Source: Anaerococcus provencensis (GTDB lineage Bacteria > Bacillota > Clostridia > Tissierellales > Peptoniphilaceae). From it: a stretch of DNA of 64,000 bases. The DNA lies in NCBI RefSeq assembly GCF_000312365.2, contig NZ_HG003690.1, forward strand, positions 44,966 to 108,965, written 5' to 3'. The translations under genes and the position numbers were made by a program. Numbering within the stretch: the first letter of the stretch is position 1; every line of letters starts with the position of its first letter. Of this stretch, positions 2,147-50,018 are shown one piece after another. The notes beneath the pieces are model-generated. The model saw only the letters and a list, made by a program, of their open reading frames with translations, had not been told where the DNA came from and searched no databases.

Positions 2147-2442
2147 GATAAAATATGTAGTAAATGATTGCTATTAAGCCTCGGTTGAAACTTAGAGAAT
2201 AAAAGAAAGTGGATAAGTCCAATGTACACACTTCAGTTTTGATATGGCGATATGAGTAATTAAAGAAATTTGCTTTGAAGAATACAACTAAACCCAAGCT
2301 TTTAAGATTATTATAAAAACAGGAGTCAACAATACCAGTTGATGCTAGGATAAATCGCAAAGTAAGAAAATAGTCAAGACGACTTATCTAGCCCTTGTTT
2401 GGAGAATGATTTTAATAGATGCTTGGGTTTTTTAGTGCAATA
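2147..2442. other. Non-coding gap with possible structured RNA
   Basis: No convincing gene is visible in this stretch. The segment aaacccaagc (2290-2299) is the exact reverse complement of gcttgggttt (2421-2430), which runs into more T residues like a terminator. An 8-base complement, gataagtc (2213-2220 region) with gacttatc (2381-2388), would cross that helix. The first pairing is unlikely by chance; the second could easily be chance. It could be a small RNA of about 140 nt or a long leader, but I cannot match it to a known family. Confidence 0.3.
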
Positions 2443-2464
2443 AAAAAATCCAGGCATAGCCTGG
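2443..2464 (-). terminator. Rho-independent terminator of the DUF1232 gene
   Basis: On the minus strand, ccaggc-tat-gcctgg is followed by a run of T residues (the a-tract at 2443-2448). It begins 6 bases past the stop of the minus-strand gene at 2470-2751. Confidence 0.8.
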
Positions 2465-2469
2465 AAATT

Positions 2470-2751
2470 TTAATCCATTTCTTGATAATTAATATCTTCT
2501 ATTTCATCCTTTTTTTCATCCATAACAGTATCTGGGATCATTTTTCCTGCAATTGTAAACAAAATAGCCATTACAATTGCGTCGTCAAACCATCCTAAGA
2601 ATGGAACAACGTCAGCTACCAAATCTGCTGGCATTACTGCGTAAAGTATTGCTGCTAGTACGGCGATTTTTGCGCTGGCAGGTGTGTTTTTGTTAAATAG
2701 AGCTTTCATAAAAGCAGGAATGGATGTTCTGATTGTATTTAATTTATTCAT
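2470..2751 (-). CDS. DUF1232 (YkvA-like) small membrane protein
   Basis: The 93-residue protein carries the DUF1232 signature around residues 37-60: YAVMPADLVADVVPFLGWFDD, a helix-turn-helix pair of hydrophobic segments. A second hydrophobic stretch (AIVMAILFTIAGKMI) follows, then an acidic tail. Family members are small membrane-associated proteins without a settled function. The gene is monocistronic and convergent with the glutaredoxin-like gene. The start ATG has a good minus-strand ribosome site (aaggggt). Confidence 0.8.
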   Translation of the reverse strand: MNKLNTIRTSIPAFMKALFNKNTPASAKIAVLAAILYAVMPADLVADVVPFLGWFDDAIVMAILFTIAGKMIPDTVMDEKKDEIEDINYQEMD

Positions 2752-2891
2752 AAAAACCCCTTTCTTAAAATGAGTTTAAATAATATTAACTTGTAAGATT
2801 ATTATACTTGAATATTTTAAAAGTCAAGTTAATTATATTTAATGTTTATAAAAAATCTTTTCTTTGGTATAATATTACAAAGGAGAATAGT

Positions 2892-3890
2892 ATGGGATTT
2901 AGATATAGAAAAAGTATAAATCTAGGCAAGGGCTTTAGAGTAAACATGAGCAAATCTGGGCCAGGATTTTCCTGGGGCGGCAAGGGCTTTAGGCTTACAA
3001 GAACTGCCAAGGGCAACATACGTGGAACTGCCTACATACCAGGCACGGGCGTTTCCTACCAAAAGGAATTCAAAAACCCTTTTAATAATACCAAGGCCCA
3101 AAAGGCCACAACTAGCAAGAAAAGAGAGGATGTAAGCAATAATTCCAAGAATTTTACTAATGATATAGGCAATATCAAATCAGGAGATATGGGAGAGCTA
3201 GTAGCAGCCAAAAATCAAAACAAGACCAATAAAATTATTGCTGGAATATTGGTTCTCGCAGGAATAGGACTTGCAATAATAAACCCACTATTTTTGATCA
3301 TATCAGCCCTAGGACTAGTCTTTGGCCTATATAGCAAAAATAATGATACCATAAAAATAGACTACGACTTCACCGATGAAGCAGCCAAAGAACTAAGCCA
3401 AACCAACAAACTCCTAGAAGGAATTATGGAATCAGATGAGGTCTGGCTAGTCACAGAAGCAGAAGAACTAAGCGATGAAACGGGCGCAGATATGAAAATC
3501 CTATCTCGCATGCCAATAAGCTACTACAAGGGCAACGAAGAGATAGAAACAAATGCAGAGACCTTTACCCTAGACGCAACATCTAGCAAATTTATATTTT
3601 TGCCAGATTCTATAGTAATAAAAGAGGGAAACAAGGTAAATGCCTTAAACTTCAAAGACATAGACATCAACCTAGGCAAAATGACCTTCCTAGAAGACCA
3701 GACTCCAGCAAAAGATGGCACAGTACTTGGCAAAACCTATGAGCATACCAACAAAGACGGCAGCCCAGATAGGAGATATAAAGAAAATAGAGAAGTTTAT
3801 CTAGTAGAATACGGATTCTTGTCCCTATATAACTCAACTGGCTTAGATACTCTGATAGTATTTTCTGATACGGTTTTGGATGGGGAGTAA
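2892..3890 (+). CDS. DUF4236 domain protein with membrane segment
   Basis: The first 60 residues (start GFRYRKSINLGKGFRVN, then SKSGPGFSWGGKGFR and GTAYIPGTGVSYQKEF) are a classical DUF4236 domain. A linker, a hydrophobic hairpin (residues about 112-145, IIAGILVLAGIGLAIINPLF) and a soluble C-terminal region follow. An upstream in-frame ATG at 2808 exists, but the start at 2892 has the ribosome site (aaaggag) and begins exactly with the family's conserved N-terminus. The protein is 332 residues. Function unknown; it probably forms an operon with the methyltransferase 3 bases downstream. Confidence 0.8.
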   Translation: MGFRYRKSINLGKGFRVNMSKSGPGFSWGGKGFRLTRTAKGNIRGTAYIPGTGVSYQKEFKNPFNNTKAQKATTSKKREDVSNNSKNFTNDIGNIKSGDMGELVAAKNQNKTNKIIAGILVLAGIGLAIINPLFLIISALGLVFGLYSKNNDTIKIDYDFTDEAAKELSQTNKLLEGIMESDEVWLVTEAEELSDETGADMKILSRMPISYYKGNEEIETNAETFTLDATSSKFIFLPDSIVIKEGNKVNALNFKDIDINLGKMTFLEDQTPAKDGTVLGKTYEHTNKDGSPDRRYKENREVYLVEYGFLSLYNSTGLDTLIVFSDTVLDGE

Positions 3891-4901: not shown

Positions 4902-4923
4902 TTCCTTAAATGAGGAGGAAGGA

Positions 4924-5619
4924 ATGAGTGATAGTAAAAAAATTGAATCTTTGAAGGGTAAGCTCATTGTTTCTTGCCAAGCCTTGGCTGATGAACCTTT
5001 GCATTCTTCATTTATTATGGGAAGGATGGCAAGGGCTGCCAAAGTAGGTGGGGCAAGTGGCATCAGAGCGAATACTAGCGAAGATATTAGAGAAATCCAA
5101 AAAGAAGTGGATCTTCCAATTATAGGCATAGTTAAAAGAGACTATGACGATTCGAAAGTATACATAACACCAACTATGGCTGAAGTTGAGGAACTTATAC
5201 CAACTAATGTAGATATAATAGCCCTTGATGCTACAGGAGACCTTAGACCAAATGGACTTATCCTTGATGATTTTTATAAGGAAATCAGAGATAAATATCC
5301 TGACCAATTGTTGATGGCCGATTGTTCTACTGTCGAAGAAGCCATCCACGCAGATGAACTTGGCTTTGATTTTGTTGGCACAACCTTGGTTGGATACACA
5401 GACCAATCTAGGGAAGATAAGATCGAGGCAGATGACTTTGCTATACTTAAGAAGATTATCAAAAATGTAGGTGCAAGGGTCATTGCCGAGGGCAATATCA
5501 ATACGCCAGAAAAGGCAAAGAGGGTTATAGACCTAGGTGCTTATAGTGTAGTTGTTGGTTCAATAATAACTAGACCACAAGTTATTACAAAGAATTTCGT
5601 TGATAAATTAGCAGAATAA
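4924..5619 (+). CDS. nanE: N-acetylmannosamine-6-phosphate 2-epimerase
   Basis: The 231-residue TIM-barrel protein converts ManNAc-6-P to GlcNAc-6-P in cytosolic sialic acid breakdown. NanE hallmarks are visible: the N-terminal [51 protein letters not shown], and the C-terminal phosphate loop [13 protein letters not shown] with [10 protein letters not shown]. An earlier in-frame ATG at 4873 lies in the promoter itself, so the start is the ATG at 4924 after gaggagg. It is the first gene of the nan operon; nanA follows after 26 bases. Confidence 0.92.
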
Positions 5620-15247: not shown

Positions 15248-16513
15248 ATGAAAGAAACATCTAAGCTAGAGCTAAAAGAGAGAGTGACCAATTCATTTTT
15301 AAAAACTGTTAGTGCATTTTCCAATTACTATGGAGGTCAGATTATTTTTGGAGTTTCTGATAATGGAAAAATTTTAGGCCTTGATAATCCAGTAGATCAA
15401 AAATTAAATATTGAAAACAAGATAAACGATTCTATAAACCCAAATCCAGACTATAGCTTATCTATTGATCAAGATAACAATACAGTAGTCCTAACTATCA
15501 ATCCTGGCAAGTACAGACCTTATTATTATGAATCTAAGGCATATGCTAGAAATGATACAGCTACTGTTGAAATGGATAAGAGAGAGCTTCAATCCATGAT
15601 ATTAGAAAGTTCTAATATTAGTTATGACTCCCTTGAAAGTAACAATAAAGAACTAAAGTTTGACTATCTAGAAGATTATCTAATAAGACAACTTGGTATA
15701 AGCAAGCTTAATCTAGATATACTAAAAACTCTGGAGCTTTATAGTCAGGACTACCAATACTATACGATAGCTGGAGAGCTTTTTTCTGATAATAATTTGA
15801 TATCTGGCATAGATATAGCTAGATTTGGCGAAAGCATAAATATAATATTAGAAAGAAAAAAAGCAAATAATGACAGTATCTTAAAGCAACTTGAAGATAG
15901 CATGAATATTTATAGAAGTAATTATAAATATGAGAAGATAGAGGGAACGATCAGAAATAAATATGAAATGATTCCCGAAACTGCTCTAAGAGAAGCTATA
16001 GCCAATGCCCTTGTCCACAGACAATGGGATATAGATGCTAATATAAGAATATCTATGTATGGGGATAGGATTGAAATTGTATCACCAGGAGGCTTGCCAA
16101 GAGGTATAAGCCAAGAAGAATATCTAAACGGAGATTTATCAGTAATCAGAAATCCTATAATAGCTAATCTATTCTATAGATTAGACATTATAGAAAAGTT
16201 TGGAACAGGTATTAGAAGAATTAAGGAATCATACCAAGATTCATTTGTTAAGCCGGAATTTAAATTTACAGAAAATACTATAAAAGTAATTTTACCAGTG
16301 ATTAAAAATATTGAATTAAGCAAAGACCAATCTTTGGTACTAGATTTAATAACGCACGGTATTAATAGTAGTAAGGAAATATCTGAGAGAAGTAAATTTA
16401 GTAGAACAAAAGTATTAGGAATTATAGAAGATCTCATTGACTTAAACATAATAGAAAAAACTGGGGGAGGCAGAAGCACTCGCTATGTTCCCTTGTTAAC
16501 ACATTTAAGATAA
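15248..16513 (+). CDS. AlbA_2 (Schlafen-like) and HATPase domain regulator
   Basis: This 421-residue protein has an N-terminal AlbA_2 domain (residues 4-115; LELKERV, FSNYYGGQIIFGVSDNGKILG). An ATP-binding HATPase_c_4-type domain follows (about 235-350; ETALREAIANALVHRQWDIDA, EIVSPGGLPRGIS, GTGIRRIKESY), and a C-terminal winged helix (about 365-420). Such proteins are usually annotated as ATP-binding transcriptional regulators and often sit in defence or mobile regions. A good gaagaggtgag ribosome site precedes the ATG. Upstream repeats suggest autoregulation. Confidence 0.82.
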   Translation: MKETSKLELKERVTNSFLKTVSAFSNYYGGQIIFGVSDNGKILGLDNPVDQKLNIENKINDSINPNPDYSLSIDQDNNTVVLTINPGKYRPYYYESKAYARNDTATVEMDKRELQSMILESSNISYDSLESNNKELKFDYLEDYLIRQLGISKLNLDILKTLELYSQDYQYYTIAGELFSDNNLISGIDIARFGESINIILERKKANNDSILKQLEDSMNIYRSNYKYEKIEGTIRNKYEMIPETALREAIANALVHRQWDIDANIRISMYGDRIEIVSPGGLPRGISQEEYLNGDLSVIRNPIIANLFYRLDIIEKFGTGIRRIKESYQDSFVKPEFKFTENTIKVILPVIKNIELSKDQSLVLDLITHGINSSKEISERSKFSRTKVLGIIEDLIDLNIIEKTGGGRSTRYVPLLTHLR

Positions 16514-37351: not shown

Positions 37352-37367
37352 ATTTATGGAGGTATTA

Positions 37368-39089
37368 ATGAAGTTAGTAATAGCAGAAAAGCCAAGTGTA
37401 GCAGTTACAATTGCAAAAGTAATTGGAGCAAGAACAAGAAAAAATGGATATTATGAGGGGAATGGATACATTGTTTCTTGGTGTGTCGGTCATTTAATTC
37501 AAATGGCAAGTCCAGATAAGATAGACGAAAAATGGAAGAAATGGACAATAGAAAATCTTCCTATAATTCCAGAAGAATATATTTATGAAGTATCTAAAAG
37601 CACTAAAAAACAATATGGAATTTTAAAGAAAATTTTAAATGATAAGAACATCGATACAGTAATAAATGCTTGTGATGCTGGAAGAGAGGGAGAACTTATT
37701 TTTAGGCTTGTATATAATCAAGCTAAATGTAAGAAGAAGATTAAAAGACTTTGGATATCTTCAATGGAAAACAAAGCTATTGAAGATGGCTTTAGAAATC
37801 TTAAAGATGGAGAAAACTTTGAAGACTTATATAAATCAGCAAGTGCAAGAGCTACCTCTGATTGGCTGGTGGGAATGAATTTAAGTAGGCTTTATTCTTG
37901 CATTTACAAGGAAACATATTCTGTTGGTAGAGTACAAACACCAACCCTATATTTAATAGCTAAAAGGGATAGTGAAATAAACCTATTTAAGAAGCAAAAA
38001 TATTATACGGTAGACCTATCTTATGGAGGATTGAAACTTGTATCAGATAGGATTGATAGAATTGAAGTGGCAGAGCAACTATTAAATCTACTAGAAGATG
38101 AAATAGTTATTACAGATGTAGAAGATAAAGAAATAAGCACAAAACCAGATAAGCCTTATGATCTCACTACCTTACAAAGAGAAGCAAATAAGTATTTTGG
38201 ATATTCAGCAAATGACACTTTAAATCTGGCACAAGGTTTGTATGAAAAGAAGCTAATCACATATCCAAGAACAGATAGTAGGTATTTAACCGATGATATG
38301 GTTAATACTATAAAAGAATTATTAGAAGGACTTGAAGAAGGTTTTAAAATCAATGAATCAAACTTTAAGTCTATTTTTAATTCATCTAAGGTTACAGACC
38401 ACTATGCAATTATTCCTACTATATCAGGTATCGGAAAAGCCAAAGATTTATCTGATAAAGAAAGTAAAATCTATAATCTAATTAAGGGTAAATTACTTGC
38501 TTCATGCTCGGATAACTTAAAGGAATCTAGCAGAAAAATCAGATATGAATATGACAAGTTTAACTTTAATGCAAGTGGCAAGACTGTAATTGATGAAGGT
38601 TATACCAAGTATCTAAAGAGCTATGGAAAGGAAAGACAAGAAAATGAATTACCAGATATAAAGACTGGAGATAAAATTAAGCTAACTTCTAAAAATATAT
38701 CTGAGAAATTCACAAAAGCTCCAGGTCATTATAATGAAGATACACTTTTAAAGGCTATGGAGAGTGCAGGGGTAGAATCCTTGGATAAAGATGTAGAAGT
38801 GGAGAGAAAAGGCTTAGGAACACCAGCTACAAGAGCAGGAATTATCGAAAATCTTATCTATAAAGATCTCATAAGAAGAGATAAGAAAAATCTACTTGTA
38901 ACAGAGAAAGGCAATAGGCTTGTATCGATTGTTGAGGATAAGTTTAAATCAGCAGAAACAACATCTGAATGGGAAATGAAACTTGCAAAGATTAGCTCTG
39001 GTGAAGTAGACAAAGAAGACTTTTTAAGAGAAATTGAAGATAGTATAAGGGAGCTTGTAGATAGGTACAAGAATAATCTAAATGAATAA
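37368..39089 (+). CDS. topB: Type IA DNA topoisomerase (topoisomerase III-like)
   Basis: The 573-residue protein has the Toprim start KLVIAEKPSVAVTIAKVIGA and the acidic motif NACDAGREGELIFR. Catalytic tyrosine Y299 is in ITYPRTDSRYL, and the late GLGTPATRAGIIENLI motif is present. No zinc finger tail is seen. ICE-borne TopB homologues are standard in Tn1549-type elements and probably resolve topological stress during transfer or replication. The ATG at 37368 follows atggaggt; an earlier in-frame ATG adds only four residues. It overlaps the methyltransferase gene by 8 bases. Confidence 0.92.
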   Translation: MKLVIAEKPSVAVTIAKVIGARTRKNGYYEGNGYIVSWCVGHLIQMASPDKIDEKWKKWTIENLPIIPEEYIYEVSKSTKKQYGILKKILNDKNIDTVINACDAGREGELIFRLVYNQAKCKKKIKRLWISSMENKAIEDGFRNLKDGENFEDLYKSASARATSDWLVGMNLSRLYSCIYKETYSVGRVQTPTLYLIAKRDSEINLFKKQKYYTVDLSYGGLKLVSDRIDRIEVAEQLLNLLEDEIVITDVEDKEISTKPDKPYDLTTLQREANKYFGYSANDTLNLAQGLYEKKLITYPRTDSRYLTDDMVNTIKELLEGLEEGFKINESNFKSIFNSSKVTDHYAIIPTISGIGKAKDLSDKESKIYNLIKGKLLASCSDNLKESSRKIRYEYDKFNFNASGKTVIDEGYTKYLKSYGKERQENELPDIKTGDKIKLTSKNISEKFTKAPGHYNEDTLLKAMESAGVESLDKDVEVERKGLGTPATRAGIIENLIYKDLIRRDKKNLLVTEKGNRLVSIVEDKFKSAETTSEWEMKLAKISSGEVDKEDFLREIEDSIRELVDRYKNNLNE

Positions 39090-40032
39090 GGTAAAAATAT
39101 TAGAGCTTTTCGGTGGCATAGGTGCTATTAGAAAGGCTTTTATTAATTTAAAGATACCTTATGAAGTTGTTGATTATGTAGAAATAGACAAGGCTTGTGT
39201 TAAATCATATAACGCACTTTATGGAGAAGAATATAAAGCAAAATCAGTAGTAGGATATAAAGCTCCTAATGAAAAGATAGACTTAGTTATGCATGGAAGT
39301 CCTTGCCAAGACTTTTCAAGAATAGGAAAAAAGCAGGGAGGAGTAAAAAACTCAGGAACTAGATCAAGCTTACTATTTGAAACAATTAGAATAATTAAAG
39401 AAATGAAAAATAAACCTAAATGGATAATTTGGGAAAATGTAAAGGGAGTCCTTGATAGAAATATGAGGGACTCCTTTTTTATTTATCTAAAAGAGCTGGA
39501 AAGCCTTGGATATGAAAGCAAATATGAAATCTTAAATGCAATGGACTTTGGGATACCTCAAAAAAGAGAAAGGATATTTGTTGTTTCATATCTTGGAGCA
39601 AATAACTTTTCTTTTAATAAATTGGAGAGGAAAGAAACAAGACCACTAAGTGAATTTTTAGAAAAGAATGTAAATGAACTTTACACAATGACCCAACCTT
39701 ATATGCTGAAATTTTTAAATAAAGGTATAGATAACAGTTTTAGAGGGCGACTAAAAGTGATTAAAGATTTTTCTTATACTATTTCTACAAAACAGATGAG
39801 AGTACCTAATTCTGGAATAATAGATATTGGAAATGGTCAGTATAGGTATTTAACAGAAAGAGAATGTTTAAGACTAATGGGTTTTGATGACAGTGATATT
39901 AACAAACTAGAAGAAGCACATCCAAGAAGAAAAAATTGCACTTCAAGTAAACTATATAAGCAGGCCGGCAATTCTATTGTGGTCGATATTTTAATGGCTA
40001 TTATAAAAGAAATTCATAGAATGGAGGTATAA
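39082..40032 (+). CDS. DNA (cytosine-5) methyltransferase
   Basis: The 316-residue enzyme has motif I ([15 protein letters not shown]) and motif IV with the catalytic cysteine C75 ([13 protein letters not shown]). Motif VI (WENVKGVL), motif VIII ([13 protein letters not shown]), and motifs IX/X ([25 protein letters not shown]) are also present. No restriction partner lies beside it, so it is an orphan methylase that could protect the ICE from host restriction on entry. It is coupled to topB and to the helicase gene (1-base gap). Sequence specificity cannot be read from the protein. Confidence 0.92.
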
Positions 40033-40033
40033 A

Positions 40034-43000
40034 ATGCAAGTAAATGATTTTAAGAATATACAAGAAGCTATAAAATATGAAGTGTTACAAGATGAAAAAG
40101 AATATTTAAAACTCTTAAAGGTTGTAGGTAACAATCAAAAATATGATTTTTCTAGCCAACTAAGTATATATAACAAAGAACCTGAAGCTAGAGCTTGTGC
40201 GACTTTTGAAATGTGGAAAAAATATTTTGGCAGAGTTGTTATGAGAGGTCAAAAGGGCATTCCAATTTTAGTTGGAAGTGATATAAACAAAAAAGTTTCA
40301 TATATTTTTGATATTAGTCAGACCACATCAATGGATAGGAATATTAATGAGGTTAGCTTATGGCAATTTGACCACGAAAACCATAACGAGGCTTTAAAAG
40401 AAATAATAAATAATTCTTCATTTGAAGCTAGTGATTCACTCAATGAAAATATATTTTCTTTGAGTCGAATTTATGGAGATGAATATATTAACTTGGCTCT
40501 TGCTGATTTAAGGATAGATATAGAGGATAGACTTAGTTTTGAAAAGTTTATGAGGGACTCAATATCCTATGCGGTAGCTAATAGGTTTAATACAGCCTAC
40601 CCTATGGATATGGAAAATTTAAAAAATAATTTTTCTAGGATTAATACAATTTCTTTAGAGCAGATAGGTCTTGTAATATCAAGGGTTAGTGAAGATATTA
40701 TAGATAGAACAATAGAAAAATCTAAGGAAATGGATCGAGCTAGGCTGCTGACAGAAAGGGCTGGTGGCGACTATAATAGAGATATAGAAAATATAAATGA
40801 AGATAGAGGAGGTCAAGATGATTTATATAGACGAGATGATAGGTCAAGAAGTAGAGATGGACGAGTTTTCACAGATGGAAGCGACAGAGGAAATAGCGAT
40901 GAAGATCGAAGAGAAAACCTTGGACATGATGGAGAAGGATCTGGAATTTATGGAGAGATATCCGAATCCGACATACGCAGTTCTAAGACTGTCTTACCTA
41001 GTAGGGAGCGAGGACATGGAGAACTGGAAGAAACTTCAGGAAATGTACGAGGAGAAAACACTTTTGAACCATCTGAAAGAAATTCAGAATCAGGCAGTGG
41101 ACTTTATCAAGAGAGAGAAAGTCAAGATGATGAAAGCACAAGGATTGACAGAGAAGATGATGAGAGAGAATCCAGAGGAATATCAAGGACAGATGAACAA
41201 CTTGATGGCAACAGTGAAGAAAATGGCAATCAAGGAATACGTAGAAGCTTAGAAAATGAAATAAGCCAAGAAAAGGAAGCTGATGAAGCTTCTTTTTTTG
41301 ATAGCAAAACCACTGAAAACAGAAAAGATTACTGGATTGTAGAATTTAATGAAAACCACGAATTAGTTCCCGATTATAGTGCGCAGATAGTAACCAAAGA
41401 ATTAATAAATGTCCTAAGACAAAAGGATATTGATGTTAAATACCATAATCAAACTCTTGGAGAAAATGAATTTAGAGAAATGACTGATGATTATATCGGA
41501 TATTTCAAATTCTATTTTGACCACTATGTAGATGGCGAAGTTGTCGAGCATTATAGGATTGACCTTGGTGATGGTGAAGAAGTAAATGAGCGTGAATTTT
41601 CATATTTAGAAGACCAAGTTGCACTAAGTGAGGAAAAATCTTTTCAAGAAGAAGTTAAGGAAAAGATAGAACCTAAATTTAAGATAGGCGATCAGGTTAG
41701 ATATAAAGATAAGGACTTTACCATTACAGATTTTGATGAACTAAGTGGAGGACTTAAAACTGTCACTATCAGAGATAATATGGAATATATGGGAGGTATG
41801 ATTAGGGGTTCGGAAGTAATTCCATATAGAAACGATTCATACCTTGAAGAAATCTTTGAAAATCTAAGTCAAACATCAGAAAAACTAGCAGTAAAGGTTG
41901 GTAAGGAATTTATTTTAGAAGATGAGAATACCTTTCATGGAATTAACTTAATTGAAACAGAAACTAAAGTAGAAGTTAATGAGGAAGAATATCCTTTATA
42001 TAAGGGTGAAACATTTGAAGAAAGTAGAAAGATTGATGACCTTTTAGATAGTGGAAATTATGAGATATACAAATTATCTGAGCATGAAAAACAAATTGAA
42101 AGACAAGTAGAACAAGAAAGCTTTATAGATAACTACAATCCAGAAATTGACCAAATGATGGATAGATACAATGTGCCTAGGGAAGCAGCCGAAAACTTAT
42201 TGAGGGGAAAAGAAGATTTAAAGAATCTAGGCTATGAACCTAATAAGGAAAGACTAAGTTTTGCTAGAAATTATGACTTAAAAAATCATATCTACTCAGA
42301 ATACCTAACACCATCAGAAAAGCTAGATAAAAATATCAAAGCTATTAAAATGCTCAAAAGACTTGAAAATGAAAATAGGAGTCCAAAAGAATATGAACAA
42401 GCTTATCTTGCTGATTATTTAGGTTGGGGTGGTCTTGCCGATGTCTTTGATGAAGAAAAGGGAGGTCAATGGCTTGAAGCAAGGAATATTTTAAAGGAGA
42501 ATCTAACAAATGAAGAGTATTTGAATGCTAAAGAGTCTACTTTAACATCGTTTTATACACCTAGAGAGGTAATGGATGGAATATATAAAACTCTAACGGA
42601 TATGGGATTTAAGACTGGGAATATCCTTGAACCATCTGCAGGAGTCGGAAATTTCATTGGTAATATGCCAAATGAAATGAAAGCGTCTAAAATCTATGGA
42701 GTAGAAAAAGATAGCCTAAGCGGAAGAATAGCCAGAGAACTTTATCCTGAAGCTAATATTCAAATTAAAGGTTTTGAAGAAACAAACTTCTCAAACAATT
42801 TCTTTGATTTAGTAATTGGAAATGTTCCCTTTGGAGATTTTAAAGTTAACGATCGTGAATATAACAGAAATAACTTTCTGATTCACGATTATTTTTTTGC
42901 AAAGTCAATAGATAAGGTAAGAAATGGAGGAATTATCGCCTTCATAACTTCATCTGGAACTATGGATAAAAAAGATGAATCTGTTAGAAAATATATTAAT

Positions 43001-46000
43001 GCAAGATGTGAATTTTTAGGAGCTATGAGGCTACCTAATACAACATTTAAAGGACTTGCTGGTACAGAAGTTACTTCAGATATTATTTTCTTAAAGAAGA
43101 GAGATTCAGTTATAGAAAGAGATGATGATTGGATACACCTATCAACTGATAAAAAGGGTTTGACCTATAATAAATACTTTGTAGATAATCCTCAGATGGT
43201 ATTAGGGGATATGAAAGAAGTATCTGGCAGATTTGGCAATACTATTACTTGTGATGAAAAAGAAGATGAAAAGTTAAAAGACTTAATGGATATTGCAAGT
43301 AAGGAAATATCTTCAAATTCAAAATATGAAGAGGTCGAACTATTGGAAGATGAAGAATTAAGTCTTCCAGCAACAGATGATGTTAAGAATTTTTCTTACA
43401 CTATTATTGATGAAGAGGTCTACCTAAGAGAAAACTCAGTCTTAATCAAGCAGAATATATCAGATAAAAATAAAGAAAAGATAAAAGATTATCTTGATGT
43501 AATGAATGCTTTAAAAGATGTAATAGAAAAACAAAAGGACGATTTTTCTGAAGAAGAAATAAAAGAGTCACAAGCAAAGTTAAATGAAGTCTATGATAAC
43601 TTTTCAAAGAAACATGGCTTTATTAACTCCTTATCAAATACTAGAGCTTTAAAGGAAGACTCAAACTTTCCTTTGGTTTCATCAATAGAAATACTTGATG
43701 ATGAGGATAATTTCAAAGCTAAGAGTGATATATTCTCAAAAAGAACAATAACAAAGGCAAAAGTAGTAGACCATGTAGATACTTCCCTTGAAGCTTTAGT
43801 CTTATCAGTTTCACAAAAAGGATATGTAGATTTTGAATATATGGAATCTATCACTAATAAAGATAGGAATACTTTAATTGGTGAACTTGAGGGCGAAATA
43901 TTTTTAGATATTAAGGATACAGACCTAATAAATAACAAAATGCCCTTTGAAAACTTTAATAATGACGATCCATTTCATTTTTCATATGTATCAGCTGATG
44001 AGTATTTAAGTGGCAATATTAGAGAAAAGATTGGTTATCTCAATTCATATATAGGAGAAATTGAAAATGTAATAGATTTAGCACCTTCTGAAAAGAAAGA
44101 CACATTATTAAACGAGTTAGGCAAACTCAAATATCAGAGAGAAAAATTACAAGAAGTTATGCCTGAAGAACTCACTGCTTCTGATATAAATGTAAGGTTA
44201 GGAGCAACTTGGATACCTCAAAAAGATATAGAAGACTTTACTTTTAATCTTTTAAAAACACCTGGCTATGATAGGTGGAATATAAATGTTAGGTTTTCGC
44301 CACACACGAGTGAATGGAACATTGAAGGTAAAAGTGTTGACTCAACTAATGACCTTGCTAACATGACTTATGGTACAAGTAGAGTAAATGCCTATAAGCT
44401 AATTGAAAATGCCCTTAATCTAAAAGATACAAAGGTATTTGACCAAGTAATAAATGATGATGGTTCTAAGACTTCTGTATTAAACAAAAAAGAAACTATG
44501 CTTGCAAGTCAAAAGCAAGAACTGATTAAAGAAGAATTTAAGAATTGGATATTTGAAGATCCTGATAGAAGATATAGGCTAGAGAAGATTTATAATGAAA
44601 AATTCAATTCAATTAGAAATAGAGAATTTGATGGTTCTAACTTAACTTTTGATGGAATGAATACTGAAATCAGACTACGAGAACATCAAAAAAATGCCAT
44701 AGCAAGGACTCTTTATGGTGGAAATACACTACTTGCCCATGTAGTAGGAGCAGGAAAAACTTTTGAAATGGTAGCTTCTGCTATGGAATCTAAAAAGTTG
44801 GGACTTGCAAGTAAGTCATTATTTGTAGTTCCTAACCATCTAACCACTCAAATTGGTAGAGAGTTTATGCAATTATATCCGTCAGCAAATATTATGGTGG
44901 CCGATAAAAAAGACTTCCAACCTAAAAATAGGAAAAGATTTATTGGTAGGATTGCAACTGGAGAATATGACGCAGTCATTATAGGACACTCTCAATTTGA
45001 AAAGATACCAATGTCCAAAGAATACCAGGTAAGGCATATACAAGACCAAATAGATGATATAGTTTCCTTTATTGATGAGAACAAAAGAAATAGAGGAGAA
45101 AATTTCACAGTTAAACAACTAGAAAAGACAAAGAAGAAGCTTTTGGTAAGACTGGAAAAACTAAATGATGATTTTAAAAAAGATGATGTAATAACCTTTG
45201 AAGAGCTAGGAGTAGATAAGTTATTTATAGACGAAGCTCATAATTACAAAAACTTATTCTTGCATACCAAGATGAGAAATGTTGCGGGTATCGGTCAGAG
45301 TGAAGCCTTTAAGTCTTCAGATATGTATATGAAATGTAGGTATATGGACGAAATGACAGATGGAAAGGGTGTTGTATTTGCTACTGGTACACCAATATCA
45401 AATTCGATGACAGAGCTTTATACAATGCAAAGATACCTTCAGTATGACGATTTAAAGGCAAGAGGATTAGAACATTTTGACGCTTGGGCTTCTACTTTTG
45501 CAGAGACAGAAAACACCTTTGAATTATCTCCTGAAGGTACTGGATATAGGCAAAAGACAAGATTTTCAAAGTTTTATAACTTGCCAGAGTTAATGTCTAT
45601 GTTTAAAGAAGTAGCAGATATAAAGACTTCAGATATGTTAAATTTGCCAGTGCCAGAAGCAAATTTTGAAGTTATTAAAACAAAACCTACTGAGGAACAA
45701 AAAGAAATATTAGAAGCTATTTCAGAAAGAGCTGACGCAGTTAGAAATAACCAAGTCGAGCCAACAGAAGATAATATGTTAAAGATTACAAATGATGGTA
45801 AAAAACTTGCCCTTGACCAAAGATTAATAAATCCACTACTTCCCGATGATCCTAATTCAAAGGTAAATGTATGTGTAAAAAATATCTTTTCGATCTGGGA
45901 TAAGACAAAAGAAAATTCATCGACACAATTAGTGTTTTCAGATATGTCTACACCAAAAGGAGATGGAGAATTTAATATCTATGATGATATTAGAAATAAG

Positions 46001-46309
46001 CTAGTGAATATGGGAATACCTAAAGAAGAAATAGCCTTTATCCACGAAGCAGATACAGACAAACAAAAAGATGAATTGTTCTCTAAGGTAAGAAGAGGAG
46101 AAGTAAGAGTCTTATTAGGTTCTACTCAAAAAATGGGAGCAGGTACAAATGTACAAAATAAACTAATAGCCTTACACGATTTAGACGTCCCATGGAGACC
46201 GTCTGACCTAGAGCAAAGAAGTGGTAGAATTGTTCGTCAAGGTAATGAAAATGATAAAGTCAATATCTTTAGATATGTAACAGAAAATACCTTTGATTCT
46301 TATTTGTGG
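40034..46309 (+). CDS. N6-DNA methylase / SNF2-type helicase fusion, exon 1
   Basis: Residues 1-2092 of a giant ICE protein. An N-terminal ssDNA-binding/ArdC-like domain (about 1-105, [24 protein letters not shown]) precedes a disordered D/E/R/S/G-rich linker (about 262-407). An N6-methylase core follows (motif [14 protein letters not shown] near 864; VIGNVPFG near 928), then SNF2-like helicase motifs ([11 protein letters not shown] near 1569, [10 protein letters not shown] near 1731, [40 protein letters not shown]). The frame is cut by a group II intron after W2092 and resumes at 48651; spliced length is 2547 residues. Without splicing the product ends six residues later. Confidence 0.9.
40818..41252 (+). 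CDS. TnpV-like protein overprinted in the helicase gene (+1 frame)
   Basis: A 144-codon frame lies entirely inside the helicase gene, shifted by +1. Its ATG at 40818 follows a perfect gaggaggt (40806-40813). The product is helical and ends with [18 protein letters not shown] and [20 protein letters not shown], the style of TnpV proteins (QA....GVTE.LK...MEW..+MNN). In the helicase frame the same bases encode a low-complexity charged linker, so the alternative frame seems to be the constrained one. Family assignment is by eye and moderately sure; that the frame is real is supported by the ribosome site and length. Confidence 0.6.
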
Positions 46310-46885
46310 GTGCGACATGAAGTCGCTTAATTTAACTGTTTGGCATGATGACCAAACCAACTATTCCGTTAGTTGAGCCGAGTATCGACTGCACTTAAGT
46401 GTGGTAAGCCGATATTAAAGTAGCCCTACTTGAGGTAAAACCGTGAGGAAATACCGAAACTGCCAGCAACAAAGTGGTTAGGGAGCGAGGCTTGATAATA
46501 TGGCTAACATATGTGAACTACTGATAAATGTCGTTAAGGCGAACAGGCTAAAGTTGCTGATAAGCCTGAACCAAAATGGTGTGTAGTCGGATAATCCTTT
46601 CCACAGTGGGATTACACGGACAAAAAGACTACCGGCAGAGAGGTAGAGCCTAAGTTATCAATGTTAATTAAGTGAAACATGGTAAGCCTGTACTATTGCC
46701 AAAAGGCAAGGCAAATCGTAAGAAATGCTGATAATGGTGCAGGTAAAGGAGAATGGAAAAAGCGAATGCCATCTTGTAATGAGATGGATAGGGGTTCAAA
46801 ATTTGCCCTAACTTGAAAGAGTGCAGACTTCCATTTGGTTTTTAATCACAAGAGAACTTGTAGAATTTTTGAAAGGAGAAAGCAA

Positions 46886-48556
46886 ATGAACAGTAAAATG
46901 TGTGCTACTACTAACAGAGCTAAAAACTGGGAAAGTATAGACTTTTCTCTAGCAGAAAGCTATGTTAAAAAACTACAAATGCGTATTGTGAAAGCGTGGA
47001 AAATGAGTAAATATGGAAAGGTAAAATCTTTACAGCATTTACTCACAACTTCATTTTATGCAAAAGCCTTGGCTATTAAGAGGGTAACTGAAAACCAAGG
47101 CAAGAAAACAAGTGGTGTAGATGGCGAATTATGGCTAACACCACAGGCAAAGTATAAGGCGATAGAAAAGTTAAATTTAAGAGGATATAAACCTAAACCT
47201 CTTAAAAGAGTGTATATACCAAAGAAAAATGGTAAGAAAAGACCCCTCAGCATTCCCACAATGACAGATAGGGCAATGCAAACACTATATAAATTTGCAC
47301 TTGAACCCATAGCAGAAACTACTGCTGACCCTAATTCTTATGGATTTAGGGCAAAAAGATGTACACAAGACGCTATCGAGCAGTGCTTTACATCACTTAA
47401 TAAAAAGAAATCTGCAAAATGGGTACTTGAGGGAGATATAAAAGGTTGTTTTGATAATATAAGTCATGAATGGATATTAAATAATATCCCAATGAACAAG
47501 AAATTATTAAAACTCTGGCTTGAGTGTGGATATATAGAAAAACAAAAACTATTTCCAACAGAAACAGGAAGTCCACAAGGCTCGCCAATATCACCTATTA
47601 TTTCCAATATGGTATTAGATGGTTTAGAAAAAGCAATCAAAGAGAAATACCATAGAAGAACAGTAAATAAGAAAACATATTTCCCAAAGGTTAACTTTGT
47701 TAGATATGCGGATGATTTCATCGTTACAGGAGAAAGTGCAGAATTGCTTGAAAATGGTGTAAAGCCAATCATTGTAAAATTCTTGGCTGAAAGAGGTCTA
47801 GAATTATCAGAGGAAAAGACACTCATAACACACATAAATGACGGTTTTGATTTTCTTGGAGTTAATATTAGGATGTATAAAGATAAGTTGCTTACAAAAC
47901 CATCTGATAAGAACCTCAAGGCTATTGTCGATAAAATCAGACGAATCATAAAAGATAATCCGTCAATGAAACAAGAAATTTTGATTAGAAAATTAAATCC
48001 AATCATTATAGGTTGGGTAAACTATCAGAAATATAATGTTTCATCTAAAGCCTTTGAAAAACTTGATTATGAAATATATAAAAGCTTGTGGACCTGGTGC
48101 GTTCGTAGACACCCAAAGAAAGGTAGAAAATGGATAGCTAAGAAATACTTCAATACCATTGGAAACAGAACCTGGACTTTCAGTGTAGCAACTGGCGACA
48201 GAATGGAAAATGGCGAGAAATACTATCTTCGTCTTAAATATGCTACAGACACTGATATTAAAAGATTTACCAAAATACAAGCTGAAGCAAATCCATTTGA
48301 TGAAAATTGGCAAATATACTTTGAAGAAAGAGAAGAGTTAAAAATACGAAACGAACTTAAAGGACGTACAGTTATAAATAAACTGTATAAAACGCAAAAT
48401 GGAATATGCCCTGTTTGTGGAGAGAAAATAACTATGGATACAGACTTTAGAGTACATCAAACAATTCAAAATAAAATTACCCTTAAAACTTTAGTACACC
48501 CTTGGTGTCATAAAAAATTGCATATAAATGATGAAGAAAACACGCTGGCTCTTTAA
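46886..48556 (+). CDS. ltrA: Group II intron reverse transcriptase/maturase with HNH endonuclease
   Basis: The 556-residue protein has an N-terminal RT0 region (SGVDG), fingers/palm motifs (KKNGKKRPLSIPTMTDRAMQ, GFRAKR), KGCFDNISHEWIL, SPQGSPISPIISN, the catalytic YADDF box and a maturase domain X (RKLNPIIIGWVNYQKY). A C-terminal HNH zinc region follows (CPVCGEKI ... HPWCHKKLH). It promotes splicing and reverse transcribes the intron into target DNA. The ATG at 46886 has gaaaggag; the longer open frame upstream lies in the ribozyme. All catalytic residues seem present. Confidence 0.93.
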   Translation: MNSKMCATTNRAKNWESIDFSLAESYVKKLQMRIVKAWKMSKYGKVKSLQHLLTTSFYAKALAIKRVTENQGKKTSGVDGELWLTPQAKYKAIEKLNLRGYKPKPLKRVYIPKKNGKKRPLSIPTMTDRAMQTLYKFALEPIAETTADPNSYGFRAKRCTQDAIEQCFTSLNKKKSAKWVLEGDIKGCFDNISHEWILNNIPMNKKLLKLWLECGYIEKQKLFPTETGSPQGSPISPIISNMVLDGLEKAIKEKYHRRTVNKKTYFPKVNFVRYADDFIVTGESAELLENGVKPIIVKFLAERGLELSEEKTLITHINDGFDFLGVNIRMYKDKLLTKPSDKNLKAIVDKIRRIIKDNPSMKQEILIRKLNPIIIGWVNYQKYNVSSKAFEKLDYEIYKSLWTWCVRRHPKKGRKWIAKKYFNTIGNRTWTFSVATGDRMENGEKYYLRLKYATDTDIKRFTKIQAEANPFDENWQIYFEEREELKIRNELKGRTVINKLYKTQNGICPVCGEKITMDTDFRVHQTIQNKITLKTLVHPWCHKKLHINDEENTLAL

Positions 48557-48575
48557 TTAGGGCTTATAAAAACTT

Positions 48576-48609
48576 GAGCCGTGTGAGGGGAAACTCTCAT
48601 GCACGGTTC
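48576..48609 (+). ncRNA. Group II intron domain V
   Basis: The 34-nt hairpin gagccgtgtg...gcacggttc has the standard domain V form: gagccgt pairs with acggttc, and an upper stem is capped by gaaa. Domain VI (about 48611-48648, with gggata and tatcccc arms) follows and leads to the 3' splice site at 48650. Confidence 0.88.
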
Positions 48610-48650
48610 TTAGAGGGGAAAGGGATAGTAATATCCCCGACCTACTCGAC

Positions 48651-50018
48651 CAGACGATAGAGAATAAGCAAAAATTCATTTCTCAAATTATGACTTCAAA
48701 AACTCCAGTAAGAGTTGCAGAAGATGTTGATGAAGCAAGTCTATCTTATTCAGAAATTAAGGCTTTAGCCACTGGCAATCCTCTAATTAAAGAAAAAATG
48801 GATTTAGATAACGAAGTTACAAAGCTAAAAATGCTGGAAGCAAACTATAAATCTAATAAATATAAGCTTGAAGATAAGGTAAATAAATTTTATCCTCAAA
48901 GTATTTTAAAAACTGAAATGGAAATACAAGCAGTTAAAGAAGATATTGCAAGTGTTGAGAAATTAGGAGAAGGAGATAGTAAATTTACATCAATGAGTCT
49001 TGGTGGAAATAAAATTTTAGATAAGAAAGAAGCTGGAGAGAAGCTATTAGAAGAAATAAAAAAAGTAAAGATAAATGATAGTAAGGTCATTGGTAAATAT
49101 AGAAATTTAGACTTACAAGTTTCATATAACTTTATGACTAATACTCATACATTTAAACTCCTAGGAAAAGCAGAATACTTTGGAGAGTTTTCAAACTCTA
49201 CTGATGGTAATATAACAAGGCTTGATAATGCTATTGAAAAAATGCCTTCAAGACTTGAAAGATTGAATCAAAACCTTGAAAACTATAAGGAATCTTTAGA
49301 AAATGCCAAAGTAGAATTAATCAAACCATTTGAAAAAGCAGATGAGTTAAGGGAAAAGACACTAAGACTAGCTGAAATTAATAAACTTTTAGATATGGGA
49401 GAAGTAGAAGAATTAGAAAACCAATCACCATTATTAGAAGATTTAAAGAGGGCAATAGTTGATTATTCCAACTATGAGTTTTCAGAATCTAATAGCTATG
49501 AAGACTTTGACAAACTATACCCTGATTTAAGTCATATAGGACTTGCCTATACAGAAACACCTGATGGTAAGCATTCTATTCAATATGAAGTAAATTTGGA
49601 AGAAAAAACATGGACTCAGTATGTAGATAATGTAGCTATTAGAACAGAATCTTTTGTAGAAGAAGATATATCTAACTCACAAGCTATTAAAGATATGACC
49701 GAAGCTATAAAGATGTCTAGTTTTGATGATCTGGTATCAGTAGATGAAGAAGATTTAAAACAAGCACTGGGCTTAGAAATAGATGATGACGGAAACTTCT
49801 ATGATCCACTTGCAAAAGATCATGATAATGACGGAATACCAGATAGGTATGACAATGATTTTAAAGATAGTGATTACTTTGAATCAACTTATGATGTAGA
49901 GGATAATCTTCACGCAAGAGAAGAGAAACCATCAATATTGGGTCAAATATCAAAATTCAAATCAGAAGAAGAAAAAGATAAAAATCAAGAAAAAAACGAA
50001 AAAGGACAAGAAAGGTAA
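48651..50018 (+). CDS. Methylase-helicase fusion, exon 2
   Basis: The 455 codons plus stop continue the giant protein of exon 1 directly with QTIENKQKFISQIMTSKTPVRVAEDVDEASLSYSEIKAL. The long C-terminal part is helical and coiled-coil-rich, followed by a short acidic, calcium-loop-like DHDNDGIPDRYDNDFKDSDYF segment and a low-complexity tail. On its own, translation could only begin at an internal ATG (48690) with no good ribosome site, so function needs intron splicing. It was read as the C-terminal part because the frame and the family motif continue exactly. Confidence 0.85.
   Translation, partial: QTIENKQKFISQIMTSKTPVRVAEDVDEASLSYSEIKALATGNPLIKEKMDLDNEVTKLKMLEANYKSNKYKLEDKVNKFYPQSILKTEMEIQAVKEDIASVEKLGEGDSKFTSMSLGGNKILDKKEAGEKLLEEIKKVKINDSKVIGKYRNLDLQVSYNFMTNTHTFKLLGKAEYFGEFSNSTDGNITRLDNAIEKMPSRLERLNQNLENYKESLENAKVELIKPFEKADELREKTLRLAEINKLLDMGEVEELENQSPLLEDLKRAIVDYSNYEFSESNSYEDFDKLYPDLSHIGLAYTETPDGKHSIQYEVNLEEKTWTQYVDNVAIRTESFVEEDISNSQAIKDMTEAIKMSSFDDLVSVDEEDLKQALGLEIDDDGNFYDPLAKDHDNDGIPDRYDNDFKDSDYFESTYDVEDNLHAREEKPSILGQISKFKSEEEKDKNQEKNEKGQER

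Follow-up and report, generated by a model that had tools for sequence, protein, structure and literature searches.

Comparative analysis confirms that positions 40818-41252 of the window (the whole 64,000-nucleotide stretch of DNA under study) hold a real overlapping gene, guarded far more strictly than the helicase segment that shares its bases. An earlier note on this DNA had proposed a true overlapping gene here, and the proposal is borne out by homology of the product to TnpV, a shift of the substitution pattern in five clades and strong purifying selection; together with the conservation of the arrangement these make the case for a real gene, and selection is the decisive part of it. The reading that we prefer, with a probability of roughly 0.87, is that the segment would serve two genes on the same strand, namely tnpV, with its own internal Shine-Dalgarno sequence, and the linker of an ICE helicase, and that the two would act together.

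The locus and its two reading frames

The features of the locus and its surroundings are as follows.

37356..39089, + strand: DNA topoisomerase 3, the upstream neighbour (same order in NC_013164.1)
39082..40032, + strand: C5 cytosine DNA methylase, directly upstream of the helicase
40034..46330, + strand: ICE helicase ORF, 2098 aa, with N-domain, linker, Eco57I-like methylase and SNF2-type helicase domains
40034..40771, + strand: helicase N-domain ('helN'), weakly ArdC-N-like (PF08401, 16.3 bits, below the cut-off of 22.6)
40797..41252, + strand: longest ATG-started form of the tnpV frame, 151 aa
40806..40813, + strand: Shine-Dalgarno sequence GAGGAGGT, 4 bases (CAAG) upstream of ATG 40818
40818..41252, + strand: nested tnpV from its preferred start, 144 codons, +1 relative to the helicase (Pfam TnpV, codon-position shift, dN/dS)
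40818..41249, + strand: helicase linker, about residues 262-405, on the same bases as TnpV; stop-free, disordered by composition
46357..48650, + strand: group II intron (Rfam RF02012 at 46357-46485, RF00029 at 48574-48650)
46835-48556, + strand: maturase ORF of this intron, which lies between the helicase ORF and ORF 48690-50018

The original description of a 144-codon frame in +1 with a ribosome site of its own stands, and the spacing of five bases given there is corrected to four from the ATG (five if counted from GGAGG). In the helicase frame, GAGGAGGT (40806-40813) is read within residues EDRGGQ. Inspection by eye of the bases before the alternative start, ATG 40797, gave no clear Shine-Dalgarno match. 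The helicase residues over tnpV had been called charged and disordered, and a composition count agrees: they are charged, and the residues WFYILVCM make up 14% of them versus 34% upstream.

The setting in a mobile element, also put forward at the outset, is upheld by the T4SS genes of the window and by a 95.8% identical copy on plasmid pAPRE01 of Anaerococcus prevotii, which is typed as conjugative and whose annotation gives topoisomerase, methylase, helicase and intron maturase in the window's order. The conjugation genes of the window comprise a T4SS coupling protein, TrbL/VirB6, a TraG P-loop ATPase and an NlpC/P60 hydrolase; upstream of them, ORF 15248-16513 carries Schlafen AlbA_2 and HATPase_c_4 domains. 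ORF 48690-50018 is likely the C-terminal part of the helicase, because the helicase frames of many relatives run to approximately 2540-2565 aa; those of some relatives measure 2099 aa, as in the window. A snf2 gene with a group II intron has been reported in an S. suis ICE (PMC9815147, in the part of the text available). Proteins 97-98% identical to the hidden product occur in records of Streptococcus agalactiae, S. pyogenes and Fusobacterium necrophorum (P0017, P0098 and P0117), and such identity across these hosts suggests recent, wide transfer of the element family.

The hidden frame and the TnpV family

On profile evidence, the hidden frame encodes a divergent TnpV (PF14198) protein that lies at the Pfam threshold. 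The window protein matches PF14198 with an E value of 7.3e-6 and 26.4 bits in hmmscan (cut-off 27 bits), and with 27.0 bits, scored as over the cut-off, in a genome-wide profile search. Among nested copies in relatives the top score is 31.5 bits, and nested intermediates score higher (63.5 bits for L001 and 62.9 bits for L030), so that the HMM check of the suspected TnpV-like product gives a match at threshold for the window protein itself and a clear one for its intermediates. Among the 120 homologues listed, of 282 found, precomputed PF14198 matches are present in 12; the listed homologues are 97-100% identical. The TnpV-like C-terminal end that had been noticed is there as well: the PF14198 alignment spans profile positions 23-110, and the C-terminal helical core, including the MNNL region, is present in the window protein, with conserved columns in alignments A1 and A4. 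The N-terminal TYT..GDYLIPDL motif, a feature of typical members rather than a curated criterion, is absent from the window protein in the alignments.

The prediction of an ordered, helical product agrees with the best of five AlphaFold2 models of the window protein, which has a mean pLDDT of 88.0 and a pTM of 0.77, with most helices above 90 and residues 1-13 low; the remaining four models average pLDDT values of 71-76. A model of a typical TnpV (L131; pLDDT 83.2, pTM 0.63) has a predicted N-terminal hairpin where the window model has a helix. Fold searches returned no reliable relative, and Pfam scans returned no excisionase family.

Substitution pattern and selection in the two frames

The note had further supposed that selection acts mainly on the hidden frame, and both codon-position counts and dN/dS speak for this. 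Helicase codon position 1 is the wobble position of TnpV. In the window and 26 relatives (27 sequences), variable sites at helicase codon positions 1, 2 and 3 number 38, 31 and 100 of 254 in the upstream flank, 55, 17 and 18 of 150 in the overlap, and 94, 61 and 220 of 493 in the downstream flank. For position 1 against position 3 the chi-square is 56 (p 6e-14), and in a sliding count the pattern of variable sites turns close to where the hidden ORF begins and reverts near its end. For this set, three of 30 rows were dropped (L064 for an indel, L077 as short and L088 for a frame change), L050 duplicates the locus of L090 and was passed over, and L068 gave no match. The same inversion is found in four more groups, namely the L001/L012 clade, the Paenibacillaceae, the Lachnospiraceae and a Desulfosporosinus/Clostridia set (five-clade test, n = 25, 8, 20, 26 and 17; rows with duplicate TnpV DNA or short flanks fell out).

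Across the five clades, dN/dS for the TnpV frame is 0.10, 0.18, 0.28, 0.16 and 0.22, every upper limit being 0.42 or lower, versus 0.72, 1.15, 1.01, 0.92 and 0.76 for the helicase linker, where every interval includes 1. For the window clade the values are 0.10 [0.05-0.17] for TnpV and 0.72 [0.33-1.92] for the linker. These values come from a simplified count of ours, inspired by the approach of OLGenie (PMC7531306, as far as its text was available) rather than from the published program, using single-change classes, Jukes-Cantor correction and pairs with at most 20% divergence.

Spread of the nested arrangement

The nesting is, across the genomes sampled, not peculiar to the window's ICE; this family of helicases nearly always carries a nested TnpV. 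In two genome samples, strong matches to the helicase N-domain (at least 179 bits; 21 of 43 rows in the phylum sample and 65 of 75 rows in the relatives sample) were followed directly downstream by Pfam TnpV in 78 of 86 cases, two rows being shared, as the two N-domain matches of the window genome (G000) were counted in both samples. By sample, a PF14198 match lay behind all 21 strong matches in the phylum sample (299 genomes) and behind 57 of the 65 in the relatives sample (101 genomes). Six of the eight Pfam misses have a frame of 137-146 codons, in +1 to the helicase, that scores 47.7-57.1 bits with a wider TnpV profile; none of these six helicases is among the seeds of that profile, and one (G042) has a stop inside the N-domain. 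The last two misses are fragments, with frames of 208 and 187 aa. The wider profile was built from 15 seeds including L050, a 98% identical copy of the window protein, and its 112 bits for the window clade are circular because L050 is among the seeds, and were not used. Between profile matches, the gap from N-domain to TnpV is -7 to 233 nt. Since the note had asked after an open frame and a ribosome site in homologous helicases, it bears on its claim that both are found there, the nesting in these 78 of 86 and the Shine-Dalgarno sequence in 47 of 53 representatives.

The 32 weaker N-domain rows represent a partial domain, many of them in proteins of approximately 300 aa, and were left out of the counts; Pfam TnpV lies at most 600 nt behind five of them (G129, G049, G034, G002 contig C245 and G035 contig C1), and the tables show no Pfam TnpV match within 600 nt behind the other 27. 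Standalone TnpV is common too: no strong N-domain precedes 21 of the 42 TnpV matches from the phylum sample, nor 12 of the 69 from the relatives sample. A standalone TnpV gene in L003 (1465-1839) lies upstream of 2205-3329, which by eye resembles a ribosomal-protection tetracycline-resistance gene; a tnpV adjoining tet(O) is described for Roseburia in the available part of PMC11913394.

Of 533 loci found, the 80 named ones that were kept are the best matches; 76 of these are nested, one adjoins a helicase whose frame is broken, and in the remaining three no N-domain was scored, their helicase frame being open nonetheless; the proportion is non-random, because loci were ranked by similarity to a query with six of seven rows nested, and the helicase profile used for this scoring extends past the N-domain. 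Hosts of nested loci include Peptococcaceae, Desulfitobacteriaceae, Thermotaleaceae, Lutisporaceae, Lachnospiraceae and Paenibacillaceae. The window genome itself has a second helicase with this N-domain (L001; G000 contig C2, 30221-30538), with a frame of 3502 aa and a nested TnpV that scores 63.4 bits in the genome search.

The helicase frame is kept open over tnpV

We compared 154 distinct TnpV DNA sequences, a non-random sample, of which 133 are nested, two adjoin a broken-frame helicase and 19 count as alone. Every one of the 133 nested sequences has the +1 frame offset. No helicase-frame stop occurs in these 133, while 15 of the 19 alone have stops (mean 5.5 over the 19); the zero is partly definitional, because nesting was scored by an open helicase frame, and the alone genes provide the comparison. 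Some TnpV wobble sites would spell a stop in the helicase frame if they held T; T occupies 0 of 5706 such sites in nested sequences and 104 of 695 in those alone. At control wobble sites, where no stop is written, T is found at 5.3% in nested sequences versus 19.6% in those alone, base composition being uncontrolled; this scarcity may hint at pressure on the composition of the linker, and base composition could also account for it. The linker seems to shun codons that begin with T (aromatic residues, Cys, some Ser and Leu).

Start site, expression and the question of a fusion protein

A Shine-Dalgarno match of at least five bases, 3 to 10 bases from the ATG, was found for 47 of 53 nested representatives (89%), compared with 12.6% of 1996 matched random stretches scored under the same rule, the value in each case being the highest among approximately 4.7 candidate starts, ATG receiving a bonus. 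Under this rule, which favours ATG, the chosen start is ATG in all 53. The RNA around the window start is no more folded than shuffles (z -0.70). Internal initiation is the likeliest route of expression, because the ribosome site is kept so far above the controls. The TnpV protein is predicted to be made from its own start and to help the element move.

We propose that ribosomes would start inside the helicase message at the Shine-Dalgarno sequence of tnpV, so that each message would give both the giant helicase and a small, mainly helical protein, TnpV, in fixed relation. Judging by their co-occurrence, TnpV probably acts with the helicase on element DNA during conjugation or excision, and such a joint role would explain the near-universal retention of TnpV in helicases with this N-domain. 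Against it counts that TnpV is also found apart from these helicases. The linker would act as a flexible spacer, its sequence being determined for the most part by TnpV, and its own needs would be an open frame and, probably, few bulky residues.

The best of the other explanations, which we regard as improbable, is that TnpV forms the tail of a +1 frameshift product, a fusion of N-domain and TnpV of approximately 400 aa. The +1 offset and the closeness of TnpV to the N-domain (the gap given above) are as such a fusion would have them, and frame changes in the helicase genes of L088, L027 and L150 shift or join the frames of N-domain and TnpV, in L088 as a single frame of 396 aa. These frame changes could be assembly error or decay, which look alike in such data; the two rows in which the offset by profile position deviates, L088 and L027, are both among these frame-changed helicases. 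Against a fusion stands the ATG with its Shine-Dalgarno sequence, kept in the large majority of representatives, which a fusion would not need.

Insertion, chance and the age of the frames

The open frame could instead be a standalone tnpV that inserted recently or is decaying, kept only since it left the helicase frame unstopped; standalone TnpV genes do exist, and TnpV is described on transposons (PMC3158075, in the part available). We consider this very unlikely: position and offset are the same across Paenibacillaceae, Lachnospiraceae and Desulfitobacteriaceae, no other linker position or offset was seen among the nested cases, and there is purifying selection in each clade tested. In a tree of 71 rows, thinned at 85% similarity from the 154 and 123 columns wide (L028, L088 and rows shorter than 85 aa were left out), the window TnpV falls among nested rows, grouping with nested L030 and L099 (97/92) and then with a nested set of nine rows (97/99), on a long branch (2.3) and in a tree without a non-TnpV outgroup. 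That the hidden frame is a chance opening in a stop-poor, low-complexity linker and no gene at all was rejected as the least credible explanation: when the helicase was permuted synonymously, 27 of 5000 permutations contained an open +1 run of at least 151 codons, which makes openness by itself only modest evidence, and the hidden frame stayed open in 80 of 20000 permutations confined to the linker segment, but Pfam homology, the wobble shift in five clades and dN/dS values of 0.10-0.28 are unexpected of such a frame, and the shift and dN/dS contradict it.

Either frame may be the older. The word 'overprinted', used earlier for tnpV, may fit the helicase linker rather than TnpV. Codon usage of the TnpV frame is closer than that of the linker to the flanks in Paenibacillaceae, Lachnospiraceae and the Desulfosporosinus/Clostridia set, and farther from them in the window clade and in L001/L012. 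In the tree, which is unrooted and has long branches, 12 of the standalone rows cluster together (94/69), and there are seven changes between nested and alone; three rows classed as alone (L149, L150 and L210) have DNA of the nested type with the helicase part broken or missing. In L149 (TnpV at 4919-5368), the linker frame is open and no helicase N-domain or motor was found in the 10-kb locus; this TnpV may be what remains of a nested copy now separated from its helicase.

A bolder reading, to which we give somewhat less than even odds, is that a whole class of conjugative elements in the Bacillota would carry an obligate two-in-one gene, in which the helicase is read through an older tnpV, the disordered linker that separates its N-domain from its motor is a by-product of TnpV, and initiation couples the output of the two proteins. 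If so, internal initiation would tie the two outputs together and thereby control transfer, and much of the TnpV family, now classed among transposon genes, would consist of nested genes.

Annotation and comparison with known systems

Claims of long overlapping genes in bacteria often come without evolutionary support. The tnpV/helicase pair has such support in five clades and in a named protein family, and could serve as a model for studying how two proteins come to share DNA through internal initiation, avoidance of stops and disorder. TnpV, a protein without known function, gains the helicase as a likely partner. The conjecture that the gene had been overlooked in annotation is true in part. 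The gene table of pAPRE01, called incomplete by its source, lists the helicase only and no TnpV; on the other side, the product has already been called in places, since near-identical proteins bear the name 'TnpV protein' in records of S. agalactiae, S. pyogenes, Anaerococcus hydrogenalis and F. necrophorum. Overlapping protein-coding genes are disallowed by standard annotation programs, according to the available part of PMC8665328, and gene finders that allow one gene per stretch would drop one of the two in a common mobile-element locus. In the literature searched, which included few subscription papers, we found no report of TnpV nested in a helicase gene.

The SNF2 genes of Tn5252-superfamily and S. 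suis ICEs resemble the window's helicase gene in being conserved, of helicase type, and an insertion site for IMEs and group II introns, and TnpV genes are reported on the inserted cargo; unlike here, the accessible portions of these two papers treat TnpV as cargo of inserted elements and do not mention nesting in the helicase (PMC5704250, PMC9815147). The TnpV proteins of Tn4451/Tn4453 and Tn6104-Tn6106 belong to the same family by profile and tree, are likewise found on mobile elements, and are small and mostly helical, whereas the gene is a separate one there and nested in the helicase gene here; a role of Tn4451 TnpV in excision has been postulated from homology with lambda Xis (PMC3158075, partial text). 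The window branch also departs from typical TnpV in having a predicted helix in place of the N-terminal TYT..GDYLIPDL hairpin. As judged from the part of PMC12915044 available, comS in srfAB of Bacillus subtilis is again a small gene in another frame inside a giant gene with a different function; its product is a competence protein unrelated in sequence to TnpV. The long overlapping genes of E. coli O157:H7 (PMC9927249, available portion) are overlapping protein-coding genes as well; they are antisense, whereas the pair described here lies on the same strand, involves a named Pfam family and has had selection measured in five clades.
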